Shown: one piece after another, positions 50,473 through 62,984 of the stretch
How the letters are laid out: each line of letters starts with the position of its first letter
How positions within the stretch are numbered: the stretch's first letter is position 1
Assembly (NCBI RefSeq): GCF_023217965.1
Contig: NZ_JALPSC010000002.1
Span: forward strand, 682,001 to 746,000
From: Prevotella sp. E13-27
GTDB lineage: Bacteria > Bacteroidota > Bacteroidia > Bacteroidales > Bacteroidaceae
Direction of reading: 5' to 3'
Length of the DNA stretch: 64,000 nt
Translations under genes and position numbers: made by a program
Notes under the pieces: model-generated
What the model was told of the DNA's origin: nothing
Seen by the model: only the letters and a program-made list of their open reading frames with translations
Databases searched by the model: none

Positions 50473-50480
50473 TATCTTTG
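50473..50480 (+). promoter_or_regulatory. -7 element of the kinase/AAA+ cluster
   Basis: TATCTTTG 29 bases before the ATG at 50510. The upstream region is T-rich without a clear TTTG at the usual spacing, so only the -7 box is convincing. Confidence 0.6.
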
Positions 50481-50509: not shown

Positions 50510-51415
50510 ATGATTGATGAGAATACATCAAATGTTGCTGCGGAACAGCAGGAAGAGATGCAGATGACATTTCAGAGAAGTCAAGTAGGCAACGTTGACG
50601 AACAGCAGTTCCAGCAATCGGCAGTTAGAAACCAGTCAGCTGAGCAATATCAGACTGTTGACCAGTACCAGATGGCTGCAATGGCACAGGTGACTTGTCC
50701 GTATTGTGGCAGTCCTATGGATATAGATGCAGACTTCTGTGAGGTTTGCCATCACTATGCTCGTCCTGACATATGCTCCTTCTGTGGCGCAGGCCTGTCT
50801 ATGCAAGACGCTTTCTGTCCTGAGTGCGGTTCTCCGCGTGGCGGCATCGTTTGTCCTACATGTCACACGCTTAATGACTTTGCCTTTTGCAAACAGTGTG
50901 GCCAGCCACTTACCGATAACGCCAGGATGATAATGGCTGAGCTCAGAAGTGCTCCAGAGTATCAGGAGTTGGTTGCGCTGGCAAAGGAATACGACGAGCT
51001 GTCGCTTGAGCGTCCTATCGTTTCTGAGCGCGAAAAGGCCCGTGAGACGGCTTCACAACAGCTGCGCGAGAGAGTGCTGAGACTTCTGGCACAAGACAAC
51101 GGACAGTCAGACCCCGAGATACCTGCACAGGAGAAGAAACGCTTGACGAAGGAAGAGCTTCAGAAAAAGAAAGAAGAAACGCTGAACCGACTGGCTGAGA
51201 TTCTCGACCGCATGGAACTGCCGCCAAGTCCATCGCCAGCTATAGTGCGCAATTACGCCATGGCTCAGAAACCTTCTGGCGTGAGACTTGCCTGGGTGTG
51301 CAACTGGAAACATGCCATGCATAGCAGCCCTTGCGGATGCGCCAAGCCACAGCTGGGCGGAAAATGGATTGTGCTGGGCAGGGGAAGCAAACAGGAAATT
51401 AAAGATGACAAATAG
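50510..51415 (+). CDS. Zinc-ribbon protein heading the kinase/AAA+ cluster
   Basis: 301 residues. A Gln-rich, disordered start (about 1-60) precedes four zinc-ribbon knuckle sets between about 63 and 145: CPYCGS..CEVCHH, CSFCG..CPECG and CPTCH..CKQCG. A charged helical region (160-240) follows, and the C-terminus (RLAWVCNWKHAMHSSPCGCAKPQLGGKWIVLGRG) has four more Cys/His. No enzyme domain is seen. Its ATG is 29 bases after a promoter-like box and its stop lies 31 bases before the kinase gene. It could be an adaptor or a kinase substrate; no known function is assigned. Confidence 0.75.
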   Translation: MIDENTSNVAAEQQEEMQMTFQRSQVGNVDEQQFQQSAVRNQSAEQYQTVDQYQMAAMAQVTCPYCGSPMDIDADFCEVCHHYARPDICSFCGAGLSMQDAFCPECGSPRGGIVCPTCHTLNDFAFCKQCGQPLTDNARMIMAELRSAPEYQELVALAKEYDELSLERPIVSEREKARETASQQLRERVLRLLAQDNGQSDPEIPAQEKKRLTKEELQKKKEETLNRLAEILDRMELPPSPSPAIVRNYAMAQKPSGVRLAWVCNWKHAMHSSPCGCAKPQLGGKWIVLGRGSKQEIKDDK

Positions 51416-51446
51416 TCAAAGGAAATTCTTTTTGGATTAGAATTTT

Positions 51447-54400
51447 ATGAGCGATAATTTTGATCAGACAATACGCATAAACTCAACTACGGGAAACAAC
51501 AGTCAGGGGAATCCTGCTGATGACCTTGATCGTACCATCGTTGCTAACCGTGACATGCCTTCCTACGATGCCGGACCTATGAACGACGGCATGGGCGGTT
51601 TCGGTCAGACGCTACGTACTGCCCCAAGGCCTACTCAGAATATTTCTCAAGAACAGATAAACACAGACGCTACCTGCTTCATTCTAAAGGGAGAGCCGTA
51701 CTATCTGGTACGTTCGCTTAGTGAGAATTCTGGTGAGGCTCAGGTGTTCCTTGTCACCCATAACGGGCAGGAGATGGTGCTGAAAATCTATTATCCGAAT
51801 TATGATGTCAACAAGAACCTCATGCAGGTTATTCACGGCTTTAACTTCGAGATGATAGTAAGGCTTTATGATTTCGGAAAGACCTATGTTGACGGAAAGC
51901 ATCGCTTCTATGAATTGATGGAGTACCTCAAAGGCGGCACCTTGCAGGACTACAATCTCAATGGCGACTTAAACAAGTTCCGACGCATTGTGCTGCAGGC
52001 TGCAGGAGCTCTGGCGTATTGTCATCAGAACAACATACTGCATAAGGACATTAAGCCGGCAAACTTCTTCTTCAGGGATGAAGCACAGACAGAAGTCGTT
52101 CTTGGCGACTTCGGTATATCTTCGATGCTGGAGAGCGACGGAAAGACTTATCGCACCACACAGGCGAGAACGCCTATCTTTGCTGCACCTGAGATGTATG
52201 CAGACGTTATAGACGGCGAGGTTGAGGTTACGCCGGCTGCCGACTACTACTCACTTGGCATAACACTCTTTGCTCTTTGGCTTGGCGAGAACCCCATGAG
52301 TTCCAACGAGCGAGTGATGATGCGACAGAAGAACGAAGGACGTCTGCCAAGACTCGAAGAACTGCCACCACGTGTAAAACTTCTTATACAAGGACTTACG
52401 GCTGTTAACCCACAGAGCCGATGGAAGTATGATGAGGTAGAGCGCTGGTTCCTTGGTGAGGACGTGCCCATAGACCAGTCGTCGCCATTCCTTCGCTACA
52501 AGACCTTCATTGTAGATCCAGACAGGAACCTCGTAGCAGATAACATTCACGAGCTTGTTCCTCTGCTGCTTGCCAACGAACAGCTTGCAATAAACTATCT
52601 CTATAACGGAAGAATAACAACATGGCTTGAGACATGTGGTAACACAAAGCTGTCGGCTTTGGTTAAGGACATTATAGTAAACCGCTATCCTGTGGACCAA
52701 TACGCAGGACTTATGGCTGCTGTATATGTGATGGAGCCTACTTATCCATACCATGATGTACAGGATGAGATTTGTGATGACATACACAGCATAGCTCTTT
52801 CACTCATAAGCTACAAGGAAAGATATGCCCTGGAACTGCAGAATCCTAACAACCGGCTGTTCCTGTGGCTTGAGAGTCACACGAAGCTTAATGTCAACCA
52901 GCTGAGGTCATATTTCACAACGGGAGCCCAGGCACACGTGGCAATAATGAGACTCATCTATGAGATAGACCCGGACATACCGTTCTTGTCGCGTCAGGCA
53001 TCTTCTACAAAGGAAGAGATAGTACGCTCGTTTGGTACTGATGGTATGACAGAAGACGACTGGACTTCACTTGTTGACGGACGACTCCTGTCTTGGATGC
53101 ACAGTCACGAGGATGTTATAGCTTGCGAGGCTTTGCGAATAATGACAGAAGGTCAGCCGTTCTCAATGACGCTTGCATATAAGGTTCTATATAATCTTGA
53201 CCGCGAAGCGGCCTACGACTTGAGGGACGCAACGACGCCACCACAGGTTGGTCAGCTGCTGGCACGCTCGCTTCAGCTGCATCAGCACACGCCGAACAAT
53301 GAGCTTGAGACATTGATGCAGGACTTCATAGATCCTGAAGGACGCTTCTTCTATTATGCACAGCTGCACGGATGGTATGAACTGATGGCCGAGGCAAAAC
53401 GCTGCTTCGATTTGCAGTCGGAAGAGAACAGAGAACGTCTGAGCGCATACGACATGCACACAGCCCTGTATAGATTCTGTCGCATACTTGGTTTTATTCC
53501 TCCTTACAAGATGCCAGACGGCACAATGTTGACAGACATGAAAGCGCTTGGCAATGAAAGACTGCGCAACAGCTTGAGAAACGAAATACGTACCGGCTCG
53601 CTAATGCAGTGGACATCGATATTCTTCCATGAAGACCCGTCACGCGACTTCGCTGAGGAATACAGCTATGAGAATGAAATGGTGAACTGGCTTAAGGCCA
53701 TAGGCACCATAGACCCTCAGCAGCTGTACTATAAGCGTTTCATGAAAGCACAGGAAGACACTACTGAAAGAATTGCTACTGTGAGAAGAGACTGGAACAT
53801 GGCTCGTCTGAGAGAAATCACATGGAGATATCTGTTCTACGGATTGTCTGCTGTATGGATAGCTCTTCTGCTGATATATGGTATTGACAACAGAGAATAC
53901 TTGTTTGTTCATCCATTCATGAGCATAATGCTTCCATTGGGATTTTTTACCTGTGTGATAGTATCGACAAAGATGTTCTTCAATGGTCTGGGACCGTTTA
54001 TATCCTTCATCATAGGACTCGTAAGTTCAGTCACGGCATACGGACCATACTGGCTAATGAAATATGTAAACAACAACTACCCAAGTTTCTTCATAGCTAC
54101 TATGATTCTTCTTACTTTAGTATATATTGCTATCAGTCATTTTACAGACTATAGGCATAATGACAGTACTAATGCTAAGGCGATAAAGGAAATGCTTGCG
54201 GCAACGGATATAAACACGTCACTTATGGAGCCGCTTTACTATACCTTCAAGACAAAGTCGTACAGGTATAATAGCTCTAAATTCGGACTGCTTGACGACA
54301 TCTCGAATCAGGTAGGAAGTATTTCAGGTGAAACAGTCATTCATTATATTCAATGGGGATTGCTGATGCTTGCATTGATTGCGGAGTTCTGCGTGTTCAG

Positions 54401-54491
54401 TCCGAAACTGATGAATGTTGAGAATCCGCAATTCGGTCAGGAAGACGTGAACAATGTAATAGAAAACGTTCAAAAGAAGGTTGTTCAATGA
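51447..54491 (+). CDS. Transmembrane Ser/Thr protein kinase
   Basis: 1014 residues. The N-terminal 70 residues are flexible and hold three Thr motifs, DQTIR, DRTIV and GQTLR. A Hanks-type kinase domain (about 80-345) has the ATP lysine VLKIYY (about 113), catalytic loop HKDIKPANFF (Asp about 201), DFG (about 221) and APE (about 246). A long helical middle (350-790) follows, then about five membrane helices from 795 to 1000 (FYGLSAVWIALLLIYGI; IMLPLGFFTCVIVST; FIATMILLTLVYIAI; IQWGLLMLALIAEF). The kinase domain faces the cytoplasm. Its stop overlaps the AAA+ gene start (ATGA), and a phosphatase and FHA protein lie downstream, so this is the writer of a phospho-signalling circuit. Confidence 0.9.
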   Translation: MSDNFDQTIRINSTTGNNSQGNPADDLDRTIVANRDMPSYDAGPMNDGMGGFGQTLRTAPRPTQNISQEQINTDATCFILKGEPYYLVRSLSENSGEAQVFLVTHNGQEMVLKIYYPNYDVNKNLMQVIHGFNFEMIVRLYDFGKTYVDGKHRFYELMEYLKGGTLQDYNLNGDLNKFRRIVLQAAGALAYCHQNNILHKDIKPANFFFRDEAQTEVVLGDFGISSMLESDGKTYRTTQARTPIFAAPEMYADVIDGEVEVTPAADYYSLGITLFALWLGENPMSSNERVMMRQKNEGRLPRLEELPPRVKLLIQGLTAVNPQSRWKYDEVERWFLGEDVPIDQSSPFLRYKTFIVDPDRNLVADNIHELVPLLLANEQLAINYLYNGRITTWLETCGNTKLSALVKDIIVNRYPVDQYAGLMAAVYVMEPTYPYHDVQDEICDDIHSIALSLISYKERYALELQNPNNRLFLWLESHTKLNVNQLRSYFTTGAQAHVAIMRLIYEIDPDIPFLSRQASSTKEEIVRSFGTDGMTEDDWTSLVDGRLLSWMHSHEDVIACEALRIMTEGQPFSMTLAYKVLYNLDREAAYDLRDATTPPQVGQLLARSLQLHQHTPNNELETLMQDFIDPEGRFFYYAQLHGWYELMAEAKRCFDLQSEENRERLSAYDMHTALYRFCRILGFIPPYKMPDGTMLTDMKALGNERLRNSLRNEIRTGSLMQWTSIFFHEDPSRDFAEEYSYENEMVNWLKAIGTIDPQQLYYKRFMKAQEDTTERIATVRRDWNMARLREITWRYLFYGLSAVWIALLLIYGIDNREYLFVHPFMSIMLPLGFFTCVIVSTKMFFNGLGPFISFIIGLVSSVTAYGPYWLMKYVNNNYPSFFIATMILLTLVYIAISHFTDYRHNDSTNAKAIKEMLAATDINTSLMEPLYYTFKTKSYRYNSSKFGLLDDISNQVGSISGETVIHYIQWGLLMLALIAEFCVFSPKLMNVENPQFGQEDVNNVIENVQKKVVQ

Positions 54492-57400
54492 TTTGTGAAC
54501 ATTGTCATAAAGAAAACAGAGGTATAGCGAAGTTCTGCAAATGGTGCGGAAAACCGCTTGTGTCCCAGAACGTGTTAGATACGCTCGTGGGACTCAATGA
54601 CCTTAAGCTACAATTGAAAACTATTGTAGATACTTATACATATCTTAGAACGAGAAAGGATGTTTCTACAATACGACTGTCGGTAAATGCAATAGTAATT
54701 GGCGAGACAGGAACAGGTAAGACAGCTCTGTCAGAGGTATTCAAGAATTTCTTCTATCAGCACAGGATTATTGGTAAGCCGAAGCTGACAGTAGTAGATG
54801 CTGTTGACTATTCGCGATTTGTAGATAACTGGGCTGAGAATATCGAAAAGGCGAAAGACGGAATATTGTTCTTCGATAATGTGCAGAAGCTGTTGCCTGA
54901 CAGATATTCCAATCAGGTAAATCCGCTCGACAAACTGTTTGTTGAGATGGATAAGTGGGAGGACAATCCCATCGTCATCATAGCAGGTCTGCCAAAGGGT
55001 CTTGACGATTTCCTTGAAAGCAACCCTGCCGTAAAGAATCGTTTTAAATACACATTCCATCTGCCAACACCCAACTATCAAGAGCTGAAAGACATCACGA
55101 AGATGGAGCTCAGGATGAAGTACGGCATAACGAACTTCTCACCTGAAGCTGATAATCTGTTGACACGATTCTTCAAATATCAGATAAAGATAAAGGATGA
55201 GACATTTGGAAATGCTCATCTCGCCATGAAGACAGCAGAGGACATCTTCACCTCTTATATAAGTCGGGGTACACGTGCTGTGCAAGTTGAGACAGAGGAT
55301 ATCAAAGGCTATGTTCCAGAGGAACGCTCACTCGACAGCATACTGTCTGACCTTGACAAGTATATTGGTATGGACGAGGTTAAGCAGGCTGTTAGGGAGA
55401 TTGCCTATACGGTACAGAACAGCATACAGCGTGCACAACGTGGACTCGGAGAACAGGAGAAGATGGGCATGCATATTGTGCTCACAGGTAATCCCGGTAC
55501 AGGTAAGACGACAATAGCTCGTAAGCTTGGAGAAATATTGTCATCGATAGGATATCTCGATTCAGGTCATGTGGTAGAGGTGGACCGCTCTCAAATGGTC
55601 AGCCCTTATCAGAACGAGACACCGAAGGTTGTGAACAGACTATGCGACAAAGCTATGGGTGGCATATTGTTTGTTGACGAGGCATACACTTTGGCACCTG
55701 TCAATCAGTCAGGAGACCGCGACAGTCAGGGCGCTCAAGCTCTGGAAACCCTGATGAAAAGGATGGAGGACGACCGCGACAAGTTCGTGGTCATAGCAGC
55801 AGGCTATCGCACGGAGATGGATAATCTCTTCCGGATTAACCCTGGCATGCACAGCCGCTTCAACTATTTCCTTAATATTGAGGACTACACTCCTGATGAG
55901 CTATTCCAGATTATGCTTGTTTTTGCGAAAGACAAGAAATACATGTTCTCTCCTGAAGCAGAATCTCTCACGCGCAAACTTATTACAAATATGTATGAGA
56001 GCCGTGACAAGGACTTTGCTAACGGACGTTCGATGCGTAGCCTCTTTGATCAGATAATGAAGAATCAGGCTAAGCGACTACAGCAAAATGACTTGACGAA
56101 GATGAGCAACGAAGAGCTCATGACCATTACGGAAAGTGATATTCCTTATGAAGAGCCTAAGGAAGTCAATCTTGATGACTGTCTTAAGAAGCTTGACGGA
56201 ATGGTGGGTCTCGAAAACGTCAAGAAGGAGATTGCCAATCTGGCTTCGTTCCTCACCCTGCAGGTAAAGCGCGGAGAGTCAAACACGTTCCAAGGAAAGC
56301 ATTATGTGTTTACTGGTAACCCGGGTACCGGTAAAACTACTGTTGCACGTATTATGGCTGAGGTGTTCAAGACTCTTGGCATCGTAAGTCGCGGACAACT
56401 GGTAGAGGCAGACCGCTCAAAGCTCGTTGCAGGAGTGCTGGGACAAACAGCCATAAAGACCAACCAGCTCATAGATAGCGCTATGGGTGGCGTGTTGTTC
56501 ATAGACGAAGCTTATACCTTGAATCCAAGTAATGGCGACTCGTTCGGCAAAGAAGCAATAGACACGCTCTTGAAGCGTTTGGAAGACGACCGTGGAAAGT
56601 TCGTTTGTATCGTTGCCGGCTATACCGACGAGATGCATGACTTCATTGATAGTAACCCTGGCCTGAAGAGTCGTTTTACTCAGACCATTCATTTCGATGA
56701 CTATAATGCCGACGAGCTGACTCAGATATTCCTCAACATGGCATCTGCGAAGAAGTTGGTAGTCAACGATGAGACAGAGTCTGCTATTCACAGACAGTTC
56801 GAACAGATGTGTCTGCGTCGTGACAAGAACTTCGGTAATGCTCGTGAAGCACGCCGTGTGTTCGATGAGACAATGGAGAAACAGAGCCAGAGACTCATCA
56901 CGATGATGGGAAATCCGAACTTCAAGGAAGAAGACATGTATGCCATCATCACCGACGATCTTCCATTTGCTCACAATGAGGCAGCACGTCCGCTTGATGA
57001 AGTCCTAAATGAACTTGACGAGTTCATTGGCATGCGCTCCGTTAAGAATGCTATACGCAGGCTCGCCGTCCAGAGCATGTTTATGAAGCAGAGAGCAGCC
57101 ATTGGTGCAGGAAAAGTTCAGCAAATGGCTATGAACTTCATACTTACAGGTAATCCAGGTACTGGTAAGACTACTATAGCACGAAAAATGGGCGAGATAC
57201 TCCAGGCTATGGAGATACTCCCGACAAGCCATGTAATCGAAGCCAGCAGGGCTACGCTTGTAAGCAAGTTTATGGGCGAGACTCCTAAGTTGGTTAACAA
57301 CATCTGCGACAAGGCAATGGGCGGAATACTCTTTATCGACGAGGCATATACGTTATCTGAACAGAACGACCAGTATGGTAAGGAGGCTATTGATACTCTG

Positions 57401-57802
57401 ATGAAGAGAATGGAGGACGATAGAGGTAAGTTTGTAGTTATTGCGGCAGGATATAGAGATCAGATGGAAGAGTTCTTGATGATGAACTCTGGATTAGCAA
57501 GCCGCTTTACATACAAGCTACATATTGATGATTATAATGAAGATGAGCTGTTGGGTATCTACAAGAAGATGGCACAGAAGGAGCTTTACACTCTGTCACC
57601 AGAAGCAGAGTTCAAGGTGCTTGACGTCATCTACAAGATGGTACTGACGAAAAATAGTGGATTCGGCAATGCTCGTGAGATGCGCAACTTGCTTGATGAC
57701 ACCATTCAGCGCTTGTCTGTGAGAGTATCTCAGATTCCACAAGACAAGGTTACAAAAGAAACCTATCAGCTTATTCTCCCTGAAGATATTAAAGACTTAT
57801 GA
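54488..57802 (+). CDS. Zinc-ribbon protein with four CbxX/EccA-type AAA+ modules
   Basis: 1104 residues. An N-terminal zinc ribbon (CEHCHKENRGIAKFCKWCG, residues 3-21) precedes four AAA+ modules spaced by about 275 residues. Walker A sites: GETGTGKT (about 72), then GNPGTGKTT at about 334, 610 and 887. Walker B in modules 2-4 is ILF(V/I)DEAYTL; module 1 has ILFFDNVQKL, Asn for the catalytic Glu. Each has an arginine-finger segment NPGxxSRF (module 1 NPAVKNRF; module 4 NSGLASRF). The modules resemble CbxX/CfqX/SpoVK and EccA ATPases, ring-forming remodelling factors. Four in one chain would make most of a hexamer. It is coupled to its neighbours by ATGA overlaps on both sides. Confidence 0.88.
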   Translation: MICEHCHKENRGIAKFCKWCGKPLVSQNVLDTLVGLNDLKLQLKTIVDTYTYLRTRKDVSTIRLSVNAIVIGETGTGKTALSEVFKNFFYQHRIIGKPKLTVVDAVDYSRFVDNWAENIEKAKDGILFFDNVQKLLPDRYSNQVNPLDKLFVEMDKWEDNPIVIIAGLPKGLDDFLESNPAVKNRFKYTFHLPTPNYQELKDITKMELRMKYGITNFSPEADNLLTRFFKYQIKIKDETFGNAHLAMKTAEDIFTSYISRGTRAVQVETEDIKGYVPEERSLDSILSDLDKYIGMDEVKQAVREIAYTVQNSIQRAQRGLGEQEKMGMHIVLTGNPGTGKTTIARKLGEILSSIGYLDSGHVVEVDRSQMVSPYQNETPKVVNRLCDKAMGGILFVDEAYTLAPVNQSGDRDSQGAQALETLMKRMEDDRDKFVVIAAGYRTEMDNLFRINPGMHSRFNYFLNIEDYTPDELFQIMLVFAKDKKYMFSPEAESLTRKLITNMYESRDKDFANGRSMRSLFDQIMKNQAKRLQQNDLTKMSNEELMTITESDIPYEEPKEVNLDDCLKKLDGMVGLENVKKEIANLASFLTLQVKRGESNTFQGKHYVFTGNPGTGKTTVARIMAEVFKTLGIVSRGQLVEADRSKLVAGVLGQTAIKTNQLIDSAMGGVLFIDEAYTLNPSNGDSFGKEAIDTLLKRLEDDRGKFVCIVAGYTDEMHDFIDSNPGLKSRFTQTIHFDDYNADELTQIFLNMASAKKLVVNDETESAIHRQFEQMCLRRDKNFGNAREARRVFDETMEKQSQRLITMMGNPNFKEEDMYAIITDDLPFAHNEAARPLDEVLNELDEFIGMRSVKNAIRRLAVQSMFMKQRAAIGAGKVQQMAMNFILTGNPGTGKTTIARKMGEILQAMEILPTSHVIEASRATLVSKFMGETPKLVNNICDKAMGGILFIDEAYTLSEQNDQYGKEAIDTLMKRMEDDRGKFVVIAAGYRDQMEEFLMMNSGLASRFTYKLHIDDYNEDELLGIYKKMAQKELYTLSPEAEFKVLDVIYKMVLTKNSGFGNAREMRNLLDDTIQRLSVRVSQIPQDKVTKETYQLILPEDIKDL

Positions 57803-58398
57803 TAATTTGTCCGAATTGCAAAGAAGAAATAGATGACAACTCACGGTACTGTGACCAGTGTGGACAGGAGCTGCACTATTGTAACAGATGTGGAAGAGTG
57901 GGGTTAGGCCGCCGTTGTACAAACTGTGGCGGACTGATGGTCAGTCCAGATGAGCTGGTAAGCAACTCCATGTCGCAGACATCATTCTCATACTCCAACC
58001 CTTCGCTGATACGAGACCCAATATCAATATCACACGTCTCACAGCCGAGCTTTAGGGGCGTACAGCAACAGTTCCCACAACAGCAGATGGCTGGGCTGCC
58101 ATCATTGTCCCTGATAAACACCTCTTTAGGCATGCGCATAGAAGCAATAAATGGTGCTGTGATAGGCAGAAAACAAGGACCATACGCAAACTTTTTCCAA
58201 GAGAACAGGTATGTGTCTGGCGTTCATGCTCAGCTCCGTTTCAAGCCCACAATAGGTTGGTGTATCATTGATATGCATTCATCCAATGGTACTAAACTTA
58301 ATGATCGTGTAATCCAACCAGATGTTGAAATGTCGCTGAAGGATGGAGACATAGTTACAATTGCAAACGTTAATCTACAGGTAAAAATTAATAATTAA
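57799..58398 (+). CDS. Zinc-ribbon and FHA domain protein
   Basis: 199 residues. Double zinc ribbon at 4-46 (CPNCKEEIDDNSRYCDQCG; CNRCGRVGLGRRCTNCGG), a disordered linker (50-110, Ser/Gln/Pro rich), and an FHA domain (about 112-197) with GRKQG, VSGVHAQL and DMHSSNGTKLNDRVI, the conserved Gly-Arg, Ser-x-x-His and Ser-Asn-Gly that bind phosphothreonine. It should read marks made by the kinase encoded two genes upstream. Coupled by overlap to the AAA+ gene. Confidence 0.9.
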   Translation: MIICPNCKEEIDDNSRYCDQCGQELHYCNRCGRVGLGRRCTNCGGLMVSPDELVSNSMSQTSFSYSNPSLIRDPISISHVSQPSFRGVQQQFPQQQMAGLPSLSLINTSLGMRIEAINGAVIGRKQGPYANFFQENRYVSGVHAQLRFKPTIGWCIIDMHSSNGTKLNDRVIQPDVEMSLKDGDIVTIANVNLQVKINN

Positions 58399-58406
58399 AG
58401 ATATTC

Positions 58407-59156
58407 ATGTTAAAGTGTAATGTTACAGCCGCCAGTCGTGTTGGCTGTATTAGGGATAACAATGAAGATATGATTTTGGTGGGTGACATGTTCATCAGGG
58501 ATGATTCACTTAGTGAGACCTATGAGATAGACCCGTCAAAGCGTTTCTTGATGGCACTCGCTGACGGCATGGGTGGCCATAATTCAGGTGAGGTGGCAAG
58601 TAGTGACGTGCTACATAACCTACAGTTCTTTTATAGTGACATACCTTCCGGATTATGCGCATGTGACTTCAATGAAGTTATATATGAATGGCTCACAAGC
58701 ATGAATAATATTTTAGAAGCCAAGGGACGTGTGGAGCCAGCGTTGAAAGATATGGGAACAACTCTTGTAGCATTGGCACTCTACGAGAATAACTTTTACT
58801 GGATGAACTGTGGCGACAGTCGCCTGTACAGGTTCCGTAATGGTAAACTAGAACAGCTGTCTATAGACCACTCACTGAGTAATCTCCTTGGAGAAAAAGG
58901 CCATTCAAATGTCATAACAAACTGTATTGGAGGCGGATGCGACAATAGTTATATTGACATAGTCAAATGTACAAGTGATGTGAAGGTTGGTGATATGTTC
59001 CTGCTTTGTAGCGATGGACTATCAGACATGGTGTCTGACAGAATGATAGAAAACCTTCTAAATGACGGCGCTGATGCCTCTCAACTATGTGACGAAGCAG
59101 AAAATGCTGGTGGACTTGACAACGTTTCAGTAGCCTTGATAACCATCGGTTTTTAA
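58407..59156 (+). CDS. PP2C-family protein phosphatase
   Basis: 249 residues. PP2C motifs in order: VGCIRDNNEDMIL (metal Asp), MALADGMGGHNSGEVAS, GTTLVALALYENNFYWMNCGDSRLY, GDMFLLCSDGLSDMVSD and DNVSVALITI. All metal-binding aspartates are in place, so it should be active, reversing the kinase. It starts 8 bases after the FHA gene. Confidence 0.93.
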   Translation: MLKCNVTAASRVGCIRDNNEDMILVGDMFIRDDSLSETYEIDPSKRFLMALADGMGGHNSGEVASSDVLHNLQFFYSDIPSGLCACDFNEVIYEWLTSMNNILEAKGRVEPALKDMGTTLVALALYENNFYWMNCGDSRLYRFRNGKLEQLSIDHSLSNLLGEKGHSNVITNCIGGGCDNSYIDIVKCTSDVKVGDMFLLCSDGLSDMVSDRMIENLLNDGADASQLCDEAENAGGLDNVSVALITIGF

Positions 59157-60104: not shown

Positions 60105-61966
60105 GAAAGTTAGAGCTACTGGCACCTGCTAAGAATCTTACATGCGGAATCGCTGCTATTAATCATGGAGCTGATGCTGTGTACATAGGTGCTCAGCGTT
60201 TTGGCGCACGTGCAGCTGCCGGCAATAGTGTTGAGGATATAGAGAAACTCTGTAACTATGCTCACCAGTATGGTGCGAAGGTATATGTTACAGTCAATAC
60301 TATTGTTTTTGACAACGAGACAGATGCCACTCGCGAACTCCTTCTTGAACTTAGCAGAATAAATGTTGATGCAATACTGATACAGGACATGGCTGTATTG
60401 GAAATGGCAAGAGGACTTTTTGCTTTACATGCTTCAACGCAGACCGACAATCGAACTTCTGAGAAAGTTCGTTGGTTGGCATCTCAAGGTTTTTCGAGAG
60501 TGGTATTAGCACGTGAACTTTCTATTGATGAGATTTCGGCTATTCACAACGACAATCCTGAATTAGAATTGGAAGCATTCGTTCATGGAGCATTGTGCGT
60601 AAGCTATTCCGGCTTGTGCTATGCTTCACAGTATTGCTTTGAACGTAGTGCCAATAGGGGAGAGTGTGCTCAGTTCTGCCGCATGAAGTTTGATCTCCTG
60701 GATGATGATGGTAATGAAATTATACATCAGAGTCATCTGCTTTCATTAAAAGACATGTGCCAAATAGATAATCTCGAAGCACTTGCAAAGGCAGGCGTAT
60801 GCTCCTTTAAGATTGAAGGCAGGCTTAAGGATATTGAATATGTGAAGAATGTTACTGCTGCATATAGCGAAAAGCTAAACCATCTGGTGAGAAAGCATCC
60901 CGATAAGTATCAGCGTGCATCTTATGGAAAGGTGTATTATGAATTCGAACCCAACCTCCAAAAGACATTTAATCGCGGATATACTACATATTTTGCCAAC
61001 GGACGCCAACCAAACATAGCATCTTTTGATACTCCGAAAGCTATGGGTGAGTTTGTTGGAACAGTAAAAAATATTAAGAGTGACCAATGTATAGTTGTGT
61101 CAAGTACTCATGGCTTCTCTAATGGTGATGGTCTTTGTTTTCTCAATACATCAAGGGAGTTGTGTGGTTTCCGTGTAAACAGAGCAGAAGGGAATCATCT
61201 GTATCTTCAGGTTGTTCCCAGCGCCTTACAGAAAGGTATGCGGCTCTATCGCAATAATGATCAGGCTTTTGAGCGTCAACTATTGAGTAATGACAGCGCA
61301 AAAAGGAAGATTCCATTAAAGATGATTGTCGGAATGACTACCGATGGAGTTTCCCTCCGCGTGTCTTCATTGTCATCATCAGACTGTTGGACGGAAGCGA
61401 CAATCGTCGTTGAACATCAGATAGCTGAGAAATCTCAGCGTGAGAACATAATAAGACAATTGTCGAAATTAGGTGATACATCATTTGAATGCTCGGATAT
61501 TGTTATTCCTGAGTCATTCAATCTCTTTGTACCAAGTAGCAGATGGACCGAATTGCGAAGAAAAGCTTTAGACGAACTGATTAGTAAGAGTAATAATGCT
61601 AAAGCCCCAAACGACACAATTGAGGCTGACGCTACTTCCAAACCTGGATGTATTGATGCAGTTATCAAGATTCCTGAATATAAGTATCAGTATTGTTATA
61701 ATGTCTCAAACAACATTTCAAAGCATTTCTATGCCAAACGCGGACTCAATAATGTTGACGATGCGTTTGAGATAAATGTTCCTCGCCCTGCATTGTTAAT
61801 GCAATGCAGACACTGTCTGCGCTTCGCGTTAGGTCATTGTGTTAAGAATGGAGGAATAAAGCCAAATTGGAAAGAGCCTCTTTGTCTTAGACTATCTGAC
61901 GGACGACGCTTCAGACTTGAATTTGATTGTAAGAATTGTCAAATGAATGTTTATGCAAACAGATAG
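60101..61966 (+). CDS. U32 family peptidase-like protein
   Basis: 621 residues, starting within the metA stop (ATGA). Barrel domain begins LELLAPAKNLTCGIAAINHGADAVYIGAQRFGARA; the U32 signature is EAFVHGALCVSYSGLCYASQY with CAQFCRMKFDL after it. The C-terminal DUF3656-like part ends in Cys pairs (CRHCLRFALGHC; CKNCQMNV) that probably bind a metal or Fe-S centre. E. coli relatives RlhA and TrhP hydroxylate rRNA and tRNA, so an RNA-modifying role is more likely than proteolysis. Confidence 0.9.
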   Translation: MRKLELLAPAKNLTCGIAAINHGADAVYIGAQRFGARAAAGNSVEDIEKLCNYAHQYGAKVYVTVNTIVFDNETDATRELLLELSRINVDAILIQDMAVLEMARGLFALHASTQTDNRTSEKVRWLASQGFSRVVLARELSIDEISAIHNDNPELELEAFVHGALCVSYSGLCYASQYCFERSANRGECAQFCRMKFDLLDDDGNEIIHQSHLLSLKDMCQIDNLEALAKAGVCSFKIEGRLKDIEYVKNVTAAYSEKLNHLVRKHPDKYQRASYGKVYYEFEPNLQKTFNRGYTTYFANGRQPNIASFDTPKAMGEFVGTVKNIKSDQCIVVSSTHGFSNGDGLCFLNTSRELCGFRVNRAEGNHLYLQVVPSALQKGMRLYRNNDQAFERQLLSNDSAKRKIPLKMIVGMTTDGVSLRVSSLSSSDCWTEATIVVEHQIAEKSQRENIIRQLSKLGDTSFECSDIVIPESFNLFVPSSRWTELRRKALDELISKSNNAKAPNDTIEADATSKPGCIDAVIKIPEYKYQYCYNVSNNISKHFYAKRGLNNVDDAFEINVPRPALLMQCRHCLRFALGHCVKNGGIKPNWKEPLCLRLSDGRRFRLEFDCKNCQMNVYANR

Positions 61967-61991
61967 AGAATCATTTCAGATTGCCTGGTCA

Positions 61992-62984
61992 ATGCCAAAA
62001 GTGTTAATCAAAAGACTGATGTTTATCATTATGTCAGTACTCGTGTCTTCATGTTTCTATCAAGGGCCATATACTTCAGATGCATGGAGCATGACAGAAG
62101 AGCAATTAGATTCGATATCTTTTTATACGACACATCATTATACCCGTAACTTCAATTTCTCTGTCCGTAGTGATTCGCTTCTTCTGATTGCCCAACACCC
62201 TACAGAGTTTATAAACGGTCTTCAAGTAGATTCTCTATATATTCGTAATTCTGACAAGATAGTAGTAGCAGACTTTGCAACTATATCAAATGACTCAATA
62301 GACACCTTGTGGGTTCGTGTAGCCCGTGATGAAGAGACAATAGGTTGGATTCACGAGAATGACCTTCTCAATGGTGTATCGCCAGACACACCGATAGCAC
62401 AGTTTATAGATATATTCTCCAATACCCATTTGCTGGTGTTCGTATGTATTCTTATTCTTGCATTGGCTCTATTTATGTTCAGAAGGATAAAAAGACTTGG
62501 TTCGAAGATTGTCTATTTTAATGACATCGATTCTTTCTATCCCACATTCCTTTGCTTGCTCATAGCTACATCAGCTGTGTTCTACAGCTCTATTCAAATG
62601 TTCGCCCCTGAGACTTGGCGCCATTTCTATTATCATCCAACACTTAATCCATTCTCAGTTCCATTGCATATTGGCTTGTTCCTTACATCGGTCTGGGGAC
62701 TTTTAATCTCCCTAATTGCGACTTTGGACGATGTTCGAAGACATCTTGCAGGATGGGAGTTGATATCATATCTGCTCGGACTGGCAGCGGTTTGTGGTTT
62801 ACTATACATCATCTTCAGCATCACGACACTTTATTACATAGGGTATCTTCTTTATTTGGCATTGCTTACTGTATGTTTGCGAAAATACTTATTTCACACT
62901 CAGGTGAAATACTTATGTGGTAATTGTGGAAAATGTATGCCTTCTAAAGGCATCTGTCCTCATTGCGGAGCGATGAACGACTAG
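61992..62984 (+). CDS. Lipoprotein-like membrane protein with SH3-like and C-terminal zinc-ribbon parts
   Basis: 330 residues from the ATG at 61992, chosen because it yields a lipoprotein signal (RLMFIIMSVLVSSCFY, Cys about 21); an earlier in-frame ATG at 61947 lies inside the U32 gene. A periplasmic part (about 25-130) has an SH3-like look (DTLWVRVARDEETIGWIHENDLL). Then about five membrane helices from 145 to 300, and a cytoplasmic zinc ribbon at the end (CGNCGKCMPSKGICPHCGAMN). It would couple an outer sensing domain to an inner zinc ribbon. No known family is recognised. Confidence 0.7.
   Translation: MPKVLIKRLMFIIMSVLVSSCFYQGPYTSDAWSMTEEQLDSISFYTTHHYTRNFNFSVRSDSLLLIAQHPTEFINGLQVDSLYIRNSDKIVVADFATISNDSIDTLWVRVARDEETIGWIHENDLLNGVSPDTPIAQFIDIFSNTHLLVFVCILILALALFMFRRIKRLGSKIVYFNDIDSFYPTFLCLLIATSAVFYSSIQMFAPETWRHFYYHPTLNPFSVPLHIGLFLTSVWGLLISLIATLDDVRRHLAGWELISYLLGLAAVCGLLYIIFSITTLYYIGYLLYLALLTVCLRKYLFHTQVKYLCGNCGKCMPSKGICPHCGAMND

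Follow-up and report, generated by a model that had tools for sequence, protein, structure and literature searches.

Closest described systems

Bacterial switches built of a kinase, an FHA protein and a phosphatase are known, and so are the AAA+ chaperones of the CbbX/SpoVK/EccA clade. Here we describe a locus of Prevotella sp. E13-27 in which five plus-strand genes, P1 to P5, bring the two together, encoding a zinc-ribbon protein (P1), a membrane-anchored Hanks-type kinase (P2), a zinc-ribbon protein with four AAA+ modules (P3, modules D1 to D4), a zinc-ribbon/FHA protein (P4) and a PP2C-type phosphatase (P5). The locus lies in a stretch of 64 000 nucleotides (the window), which corresponds to C2:682001-746000 on the plus strand, C2 being one of the two contigs of the 3.96 Mb host genome. 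From the sequence, we see an even chance that the products of the five genes form a single machine, which recruits a dedicated AAA+ remodeller to the inner membrane under the control of phosphothreonine. Neither the models nor the literature searched showed a fixed operon in which a switch of this kind is joined to such a chaperone and a docking tail is coded as repeats. The module offers a direct test, in bacteria common in rumen and gut, of how a Ser/Thr kinase might reach a remodelling machine driven by ATP.

SpoVK, CbbX and EccA each hold a single AAA+ module of the type found in P3. The text of PMC10659427 describes the characterised members of the clade as chaperones dedicated to narrow roles, with N-terminal domains that vary, and gives the sensor-1 GY tyrosine and the sensor-2 arginine as clade signatures. 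P3 resembles them in scoring above the cut-off of the clade models, in its structural matches to CbbX and EccA1, and in the GY sensor-1 of D2-D4. It differs in having four modules per chain (three to five among homologues), a degenerate D1 and an N-terminal zinc ribbon, and in its constant linkage with a kinase, an FHA protein and, mostly, a PP2C phosphatase.

Three described kinase systems are also close. The juxtamembrane domain of mycobacterial PknB recruits FhaA, according to the text of PMC6180346, and recruitment of an FHA protein by a non-catalytic segment of a membrane kinase is what we propose here from sequence. In the present locus, however, the segment would be an N-terminal one with repeats, the FHA protein has zinc ribbons and its gene stands with that of a multi-module AAA+ protein, and PASTA domains are absent from the complete Pfam list of P2 (NF033483 scores 74.2 against a cut-off of 450 bits, over the kinase domain only). 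PpkA, Fha1 and PppA of Pseudomonas are likewise a kinase, an FHA protein and a PP2C phosphatase acting together, as described in the text of PMC6213207, whereas the host genome here has no match to VipB and P3 reaches only 46.3 of 884.95 bits on the TssH model. The kinase-kinase-phosphatase (KKP) module also groups kinase, PP2C and FHA in a small cluster, but it has two kinases, one of them fused to FHA, and is carried by prophages, with no mention of AAA in the main text (PMC11341870); our locus encodes a single kinase, has FHA on a protein of its own and lies in the chromosome between housekeeping genes. From the actinobacterial GAP1-N2 kinase/PP2C/vWA associations it differs in that no vWA or GTPase family is in the Pfam lists of P1, P2, P4 and P5 (the list for P3 gives 25 of 73 matches). 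An earlier note on this DNA had called the system possibly not yet described; this agrees with the open-licence text, figures excluded, in which we found no description. A relative of P3 may be drawn in Figure 3 of PMC10659427, since its legend mentions operons and a label 'ZnBd: zinc-binding'.

A conserved five-gene module

The coordinates, strands and spacing of the five genes given in the earlier note are borne out by the open reading frame (ORF) calls, with gaps of 31 and 8 bases and two 4-base ATGA overlaps. Pfam likewise recovers the domains it had named, namely double zinc ribbons in P1 and P4, a protein kinase in P2, FHA in P4 (E-value 4.5e-13) and PP2C in P5 (1.2e-12).

When a public genome collection was scanned with P3, 62 loci were obtained, each of them labelled Prevotella, Xylanibacter or Prevotellaceae (the Prevotella loci; individual loci are numbered L). 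The order P1-P2-P3-P4-P5 is complete in 59 of them, including L069, where the contig holds no more than 98 residues of P1. The remaining three (L025, L034 and L065) are cut by contig ends, and the P3 remnant of L065 is split into two ORFs. Median intergenic gaps in the Prevotella loci are -1, -1, 5 and 9 bases. We also mapped 19 diverged neighbourhoods (L092-L105 and L119-L123), which reach Ignavibacteria-type genomes; some are possibly of the same species as the 62, and L102 and L103 share one genus. Thirteen hold all five genes in order (L092, L094, L095, L099, L101-L105, L119-L121 and L123), four are cut by contig ends (L096, L097, L098 and L122), two lack P5 only (L093 and L100), and none is reordered. 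All five genes are present in L020, L029 and L060 of the Prevotella set and in the diverged L101. The gene order is kept at protein identities of about 22-43% with the window, in differing chromosomal surroundings, and the arrangement is far beyond chance. The self-contained module proposed in the earlier note is thus strongly supported, the exceptions being contig ends or the absence of P5; a check for unlinked genes in relatives, which it had named as a way to refute the proposal, found the linkage to hold.

Insertions occur in some distant loci. A SUKH-type gene stands between P1 and P2 in L119 and L122, and a 174-amino-acid (aa) AAA-like ORF between P3 and P4 in L105. Genes of the SUKH (SMI1/KNR4) or DUF1963 families lie in or just after the module in four loci (L119:6789-7583, L122:4665-5198, L123:10445-10966 and L105:16431-17075), the match in L122 being below the Pfam cut-off.

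The module is patchily distributed. P2 was found by whole-genome search in 3 of 149 genomes from the order and 14 of 201 from the family, and a profile of its non-kinase part matched 7 of 395 genomes from the phylum (sampled according to GTDB, and so wider than the NCBI phylum) and 60 of 150 from the genus. Among genus genomes with completeness of 90% or more and contamination of 5% or less, the same profile was present in 18 of 69. The 14 of 201 family genomes with P2 are also those with strong P1 matches (E<=1e-80), and strong P3 matches (E<=1e-150) occur in those 14 and one contig fragment (G340); this co-occurrence excludes seven weaker P1 matches, to the ribbon part, and four weaker P3 matches. 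In protein searches, which return proteins alone, kinase homologues are named Ignavibacteriaceae, Melioribacteraceae and Calditrichaceae, and one P1-like protein is named Spirochaetia. The kinase tail of L123 is that of a Melioribacteraceae protein.

The kinase tail and its putative reader

The N-terminal residues 1-75 of P2 align poorly among homologues yet hold repeated threonine motifs. In the window these are DQTIRI at T8, DRTIVA at T30 and GQTLRT at T55. The pattern used for counting, T[ILVM][KRT], leaves T30 (TIV) unscored. There are 22 occurrences of it in 15 tails (shuffled mean 4.8; reached in 0/5000 shuffles), 195 in 60 Prevotella tails (shuffled 23.9; 0/1000) and 67 in 20 distant tails (shuffled 6.0; 0/2000), figures to be taken as counts and not as probabilities. 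Tails could be parsed in 60 of the 62 Prevotella loci, L025 and L034 being cut by contig ends; 59 of these 60 have at least one copy and 55 at least two. The 20 distant tails comprise matches to an Ignavibacteria-type query and L119-L123; they are often strings of DDDKTIR or DDDKTVR, with up to eight scored copies. The serine version S[ILVM][KRT] is not enriched (9 against 17.0 in the 60 tails, 1 against 6.3 in the 20). The tail of L014, from a roe-deer gut Prevotella, has nine near-perfect D[RK]TIV units, mostly tandem, which the counting pattern does not score.

P2 appears from its residues to be an active Hanks-type kinase, with the catalytic Asp, the Asn and the DFG motif in place: D201, K203, N206 and D221-F222-G223 are invariant in 15/15 aligned kinases, and H.D.K..N is matched in 60/62 Prevotella kinases, the two misses again being the contig-cut L025 and L034. 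HKD replaces the usual HRD in the window, with DFG intact. The same replacement is found in 60/62 Prevotella loci and in 9 of 14 diverged rows; L102-L105 have HRD and L101 has neither. In the predicted model, a helical-repeat region sits between the kinase domain and the membrane helices; it has no match at E<=0.001 in a Foldseek search against PDB. The helical-repeat and membrane part as a whole has no clear solved relative, which does not demonstrate a new fold.

P4 is predicted to be a phosphothreonine reader, as it has the Arg, Ser and Asn of such FHA domains: among pattern-matched sequences (57 of 61) the Arg is kept in 56/57 and the Asn in 57/57, and the Ser is kept in 61/61. FHA domains read phosphothreonine, according to the text of PMC6213207, and since P4 keeps the binding residues, the simplest reading would be that the tail of P2, marked by the kinase itself, serves P4 as a landing strip.

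Two other sets of FHA genes were noted in the host genome. L013:6732-7265 (contig C2, about 836.7 kb) encodes an FHA protein of 177 aa whose N-terminus has a CxxC...CxxC finger, and no kinase is among the ORFs listed around it. L012:5479-15444 (contig C1, about 1529.5-1539.4 kb, minus strand) is a second Ser/Thr signalling cluster of two kinases, two PP2C phosphatases and four FHA proteins, one of which has two FHA domains and, by eye, a trypsin-like region. We considered this cluster as a version of the five-gene module and rejected it, as it does not match the P1 and P3 profiles and is a different system.

The AAA+ protein and the zinc ribbons

Pfam finds four AAA and three AAA_lid_6 stretches in P3. 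The four modules of the earlier note therefore stand in number, but they are not equivalent. D2-D4 are 41-48% identical to one another and D1 only about 26% identical to them. In 12 aligned homologues D1 keeps the Walker-A Lys in 11/12, the Walker-B Glu in 0/12, the sensor-1 Tyr in 0/12 and the sensor-2 Arg in 1/12; the Walker-B Glu and sensor-1 Tyr are both kept in D2 (12/12), D3 (12/12) and D4 (10/10), and the sensor-2 Arg in 12/12, 9/12 and 9/10, respectively. Homologues of P3 have from three modules (L098, L102 and L103) to five (L119, L120 and L123).

P3 matches the NCBIfam models of SpoVK, EccA and CbbX, and scores 770.6 bits with TIGR02881 (cut-off 422.95), 697.8 with TIGR03922 (466.65) and 635.7 with TIGR02880 (459.25); these scores flatter the single-module TIGR models because they are summed over four stretches. 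The best matches among solved structures are CbbX (3syk and 3zuh) and EccA1 (9lur). Together with the sensor-1 Tyr and sensor-2 Arg of D2-D4, these values assign P3, as judged from sequence, to the SpoVK/CbbX/EccA clade. The listing of P3 relatives comprises 120 out of 8000 scored candidates. The only other AAA_lid_6 match in the host genome is a 962-aa ORF with a CbbX-type AAA+ module (L144:6009-8897, contig C1, about 1854.0-1856.9 kb).

The CxxC-x10-CxxC ribbon at the N-terminus of P3 is present in 17/17 homologues, and by itself scores below the Pfam cut-off (24.8 against 27.3 bits). Together with the degenerate D1, this ribbon would be the targeting part of the protein. The text of PMC11237479 describes another bacterial protein with two AAA+ domains, the N-terminal one inactive. 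As a first guess, the client of P3 may be an envelope component, because the clade offers such precedents in MurG, the client of SpoVK, and in the ESX substrates and mycolate enzymes served by EccA (text of PMC10659427).

In P1, 12 cysteines of residues 63-130 are invariant in 14/14 aligned sequences, and so are the columns of its C-terminal element (n=14). Among P1-like proteins this element is found in its loose form in 76/76 and in its strict form in 52/76. A further observation concerns NCBIfam NF011149 (PRK14559, named serine/threonine phosphatase), which the P1 and P4 ribbons match near its start and P5 near its end; the matches, all far below the cut-off, hint at possible zinc-ribbon/PP2C fusions elsewhere.

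Proposed mechanism and alternatives

We propose the following course of events. A signal sensed by P2 through its membrane or helical-repeat part would turn the kinase on, and P2 would then autophosphorylate several threonines of its own tail, in cis or in trans. The FHA domain of P4 would bind these phosphothreonines, the several motifs per tail providing avidity, and the zinc ribbons of P4, P1 and P3 would join, so that P3 is brought to the membrane. There D1, which keeps its P-loop but has neither the Walker-B Glu nor the sensor-1 Tyr, may act as a nucleotide-binding platform or gate, while the other modules (three here, two to four by lineage) would hydrolyse ATP and remodel a specific client, like SpoVK, CbbX and EccA. 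P5 would finally strip the phosphates and reset the system. The earlier note had suggested a phospho-switch acting on an AAA+ machine at the inner membrane; that view is still inferential, and it has gained the threonine motifs of the tail and the retained FHA residues. The wider claim, that this is a new signalling machine of Bacteroidota and Ignavibacteria-type genomes, distinguished by a repeated phosphothreonine 'landing strip', an FHA-zinc-ribbon adaptor and a single-chain AAA+ protein with a pseudo-ATPase D1, recruited to the inner membrane, we put forward tentatively, and rate it somewhat below an even chance.

Several points weigh against the recruitment scheme. The pattern T[ILVM][KRT] was picked after the first tails had been inspected; the tails share descent, and the larger sets are not independent of the first. 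As the pattern is post hoc and the tails are related, the shuffle counts are not probabilities. Among the 20 distant tails, that of L123 is identical to P0128 and several others are near-duplicates, while P0133 and P0135 score zero, though other threonine repeats are present in them. Other motifs are enriched elsewhere in the module: [DE].T[ILVM] in the P1 tails (41 against 5.9) and S[ILVM][KRT] in the P4 linkers (27 against 10.0), so the FHA domain of P4 may have other ligands. In favour of the scheme, the counting pattern itself is not enriched in either of these disordered stretches (7 against 6.2 shuffled in P1 tails, 59/60 parsed; 5 against 3.8 in P4 linkers, 41/61 parsed). P5 is absent beside P4 in L093 and L100, as far as the locus itself is concerned, and the joining of P4, P1 and P3 through their zinc ribbons is a guess.

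The enrichment in the P1 tails would also suit a scheme in which P2 phosphorylates P3 or P1 and P4 reads that site, the tail marks being a by-product and the AAA+ protein being switched in the cytoplasm rather than recruited. Mycobacterial FhaA offers a precedent, as it binds the phosphorylated substrate CwlM according to the text of PMC6180346. The strongest and most widely kept threonine repeats are, however, on the kinase itself, and the 12 P3 sequences hold only 0 to 4 scattered copies of T[ILVM][KRT], a count made without comparison with shuffles; we regard direct phosphorylation of P3 or P1 as a possible but unlikely account. We consider it improbable that the module is a conflict or defence system whose AAA+ effector is set free once the kinase detects phage or damage to the envelope. 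The kinase domain does resemble the MAD6 and PD-T4-6 kinases (in PADLOC, which gives no cut-off, the PD-T4-6 matches cover the kinase domain only among the best 25 of 34), the AAA+ modules resemble IetA, the presence of the module is patchy (60/150 genus genomes), and SUKH or DUF1963 genes, whose families are often called immunity proteins, lie in or by it in four distant loci. The scores, however, are far below the cut-offs (MAD6 89.4/460, PglW 27.8/990 and IetA 80.9/510 bits). Toxin and nuclease families are absent from the complete Pfam lists of P1, P2, P4 and P5 (the list for P3 gives 25 of 73 matches), the module occupies one Prevotella site between housekeeping genes, and the only match in a plasmid collection is to a kinase domain (phages were not searched). 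Of the 'stress, defence or envelope' role of the earlier note, the defence part is accordingly not favoured, since no listed NCBIfam defence or type VI match is above its cut-off, no sheath protein was found and the site is a housekeeping one.

Least probable, in our view, is a regulator of a secretion system encoded elsewhere, either type VI, by analogy with PpkA-Fha-PppA, or ESX, by analogy with EccA. The Hcp1 secretion of Pseudomonas is type VI secretion. PpkA, PppA and Fha1 are listed with it in the text of PMC6213207, and the AAA+ modules of P3 match the EccA model. Yet VipB (PF05943) has 0 matches in the host genome with a positive E. coli control, VipB being the one type VI family searched, and the TagH model scores 24.5 against a cut-off of 120.25 bits. 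Only 71 residues precede the first P-loop of P3, with zinc-ribbon-type Pfam matches and no TPR, which leaves no room for an EccA-like TPR region. The neighbours in the mapped loci are the other module genes and varied flanks (no search aimed at ESX, type IX or WXG100 was made).

Genomic site

Empty sites in related species offer natural knock-outs with which the module can be compared. In the Prevotella loci the left neighbour of the module is an M13 peptidase gene (50/62) and the right neighbour metA (55/62). Nine genomes of the same genus without the kinase all have the M13 peptidase. Of the seven such regions that were fetched, four (L133, L134, L135 and L139) show an empty site, M13 directly followed by metA, one (L138) has metA about 3.9 kb from M13 with other ORFs between them, and two (L136 and L137) have no metA within the stretch fetched. 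The five genes that flank the module in the window were looked for in L098-L105 and L119-L123, where the sole match was an ABC protein of 28% identity in L123; the module genes therefore persist or move as a block. A plasmid-borne module is less likely, as the collection of 72 556 plasmid records gave a single match, to the kinase domain only.

A 345-aa protein encoded downstream of the module, at 61947-62984 of the window, beside a U32 peptidase, has no Pfam match and, by eye, a C-terminal CxxC...CxxC pair. Its gene was considered as a member of the module and rejected, as it is also present in five of the seven module-less regions (L133, L134, L135, L137 and L139).

Features of the locus

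The coordinates are given in table 1. The membrane region of P2 was delimited from the helices of the predicted model and a hydrophobic-run pattern rather than by a dedicated membrane predictor.

Table 1. Features of the five-gene locus (positions in the window).
Feature	Position	Strand	Description
Terminator-like stem-loop	50422..50447	+	11-pair stem, T tail; after upstream M13 peptidase gene
P1	50510..51415	+	301 aa; zinc ribbons and conserved C-terminal Zn-knuckle-like element
P1 zinc ribbons	50696..50899	+	residues 63-130; DZR, E 3.3e-12
P1 C-terminal element	51293..51367	+	residues 262-286; W-x-C-N..H..P..C..P..GG-x-W
P2	51447..54491	+	1014 aa; predicted membrane-anchored Hanks-type kinase
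P2 N-terminal tail	51447..51671	+	residues 1-75; disordered, model confidence (pLDDT) <50
P2 kinase domain	51675..52451	+	residues 77-335; HKDIKPAN catalytic loop, GDFGI
P2 helical-repeat region	52545..53711	+	residues 367-755; from predicted models, repeats by eye
P2 membrane region	53784..54401	+	residues ~780-985; several long hydrophobic helices
P3	54488..57802	+	1104 aa; zinc ribbon and four CbbX/SpoVK/EccA-type AAA+ modules
P3 N-terminal zinc ribbon	54494..54547	+	residues 3-20; Cys pattern
P3 D1	54572..55297	+	AAA+ module without Walker-B Glu (DN) or sensor-1 Tyr
P3 D2-D4	55298..57799	+	AAA+ modules; Walker A, Walker B and sensor-1 intact
P4	57799..58398	+	199 aa; zinc ribbons, low-complexity linker, C-terminal FHA domain (residues 121-188)
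P5	58407..59156	+	249 aa; PP2C-type phosphatase

The stem-loop upstream of P1 is weak evidence by itself, because such sites are about equally frequent in shuffled sequence (7 in the region against 6.4 in shuffles). By eye, no clear copy of a -33 TTTG is found at the usual distance from the sequence TATCTTTG at 50473..50480 (plus strand), 29 bases upstream of P1, which itself fits, by eye, the Bacteroidota -7 promoter element, TAnnTTTG.

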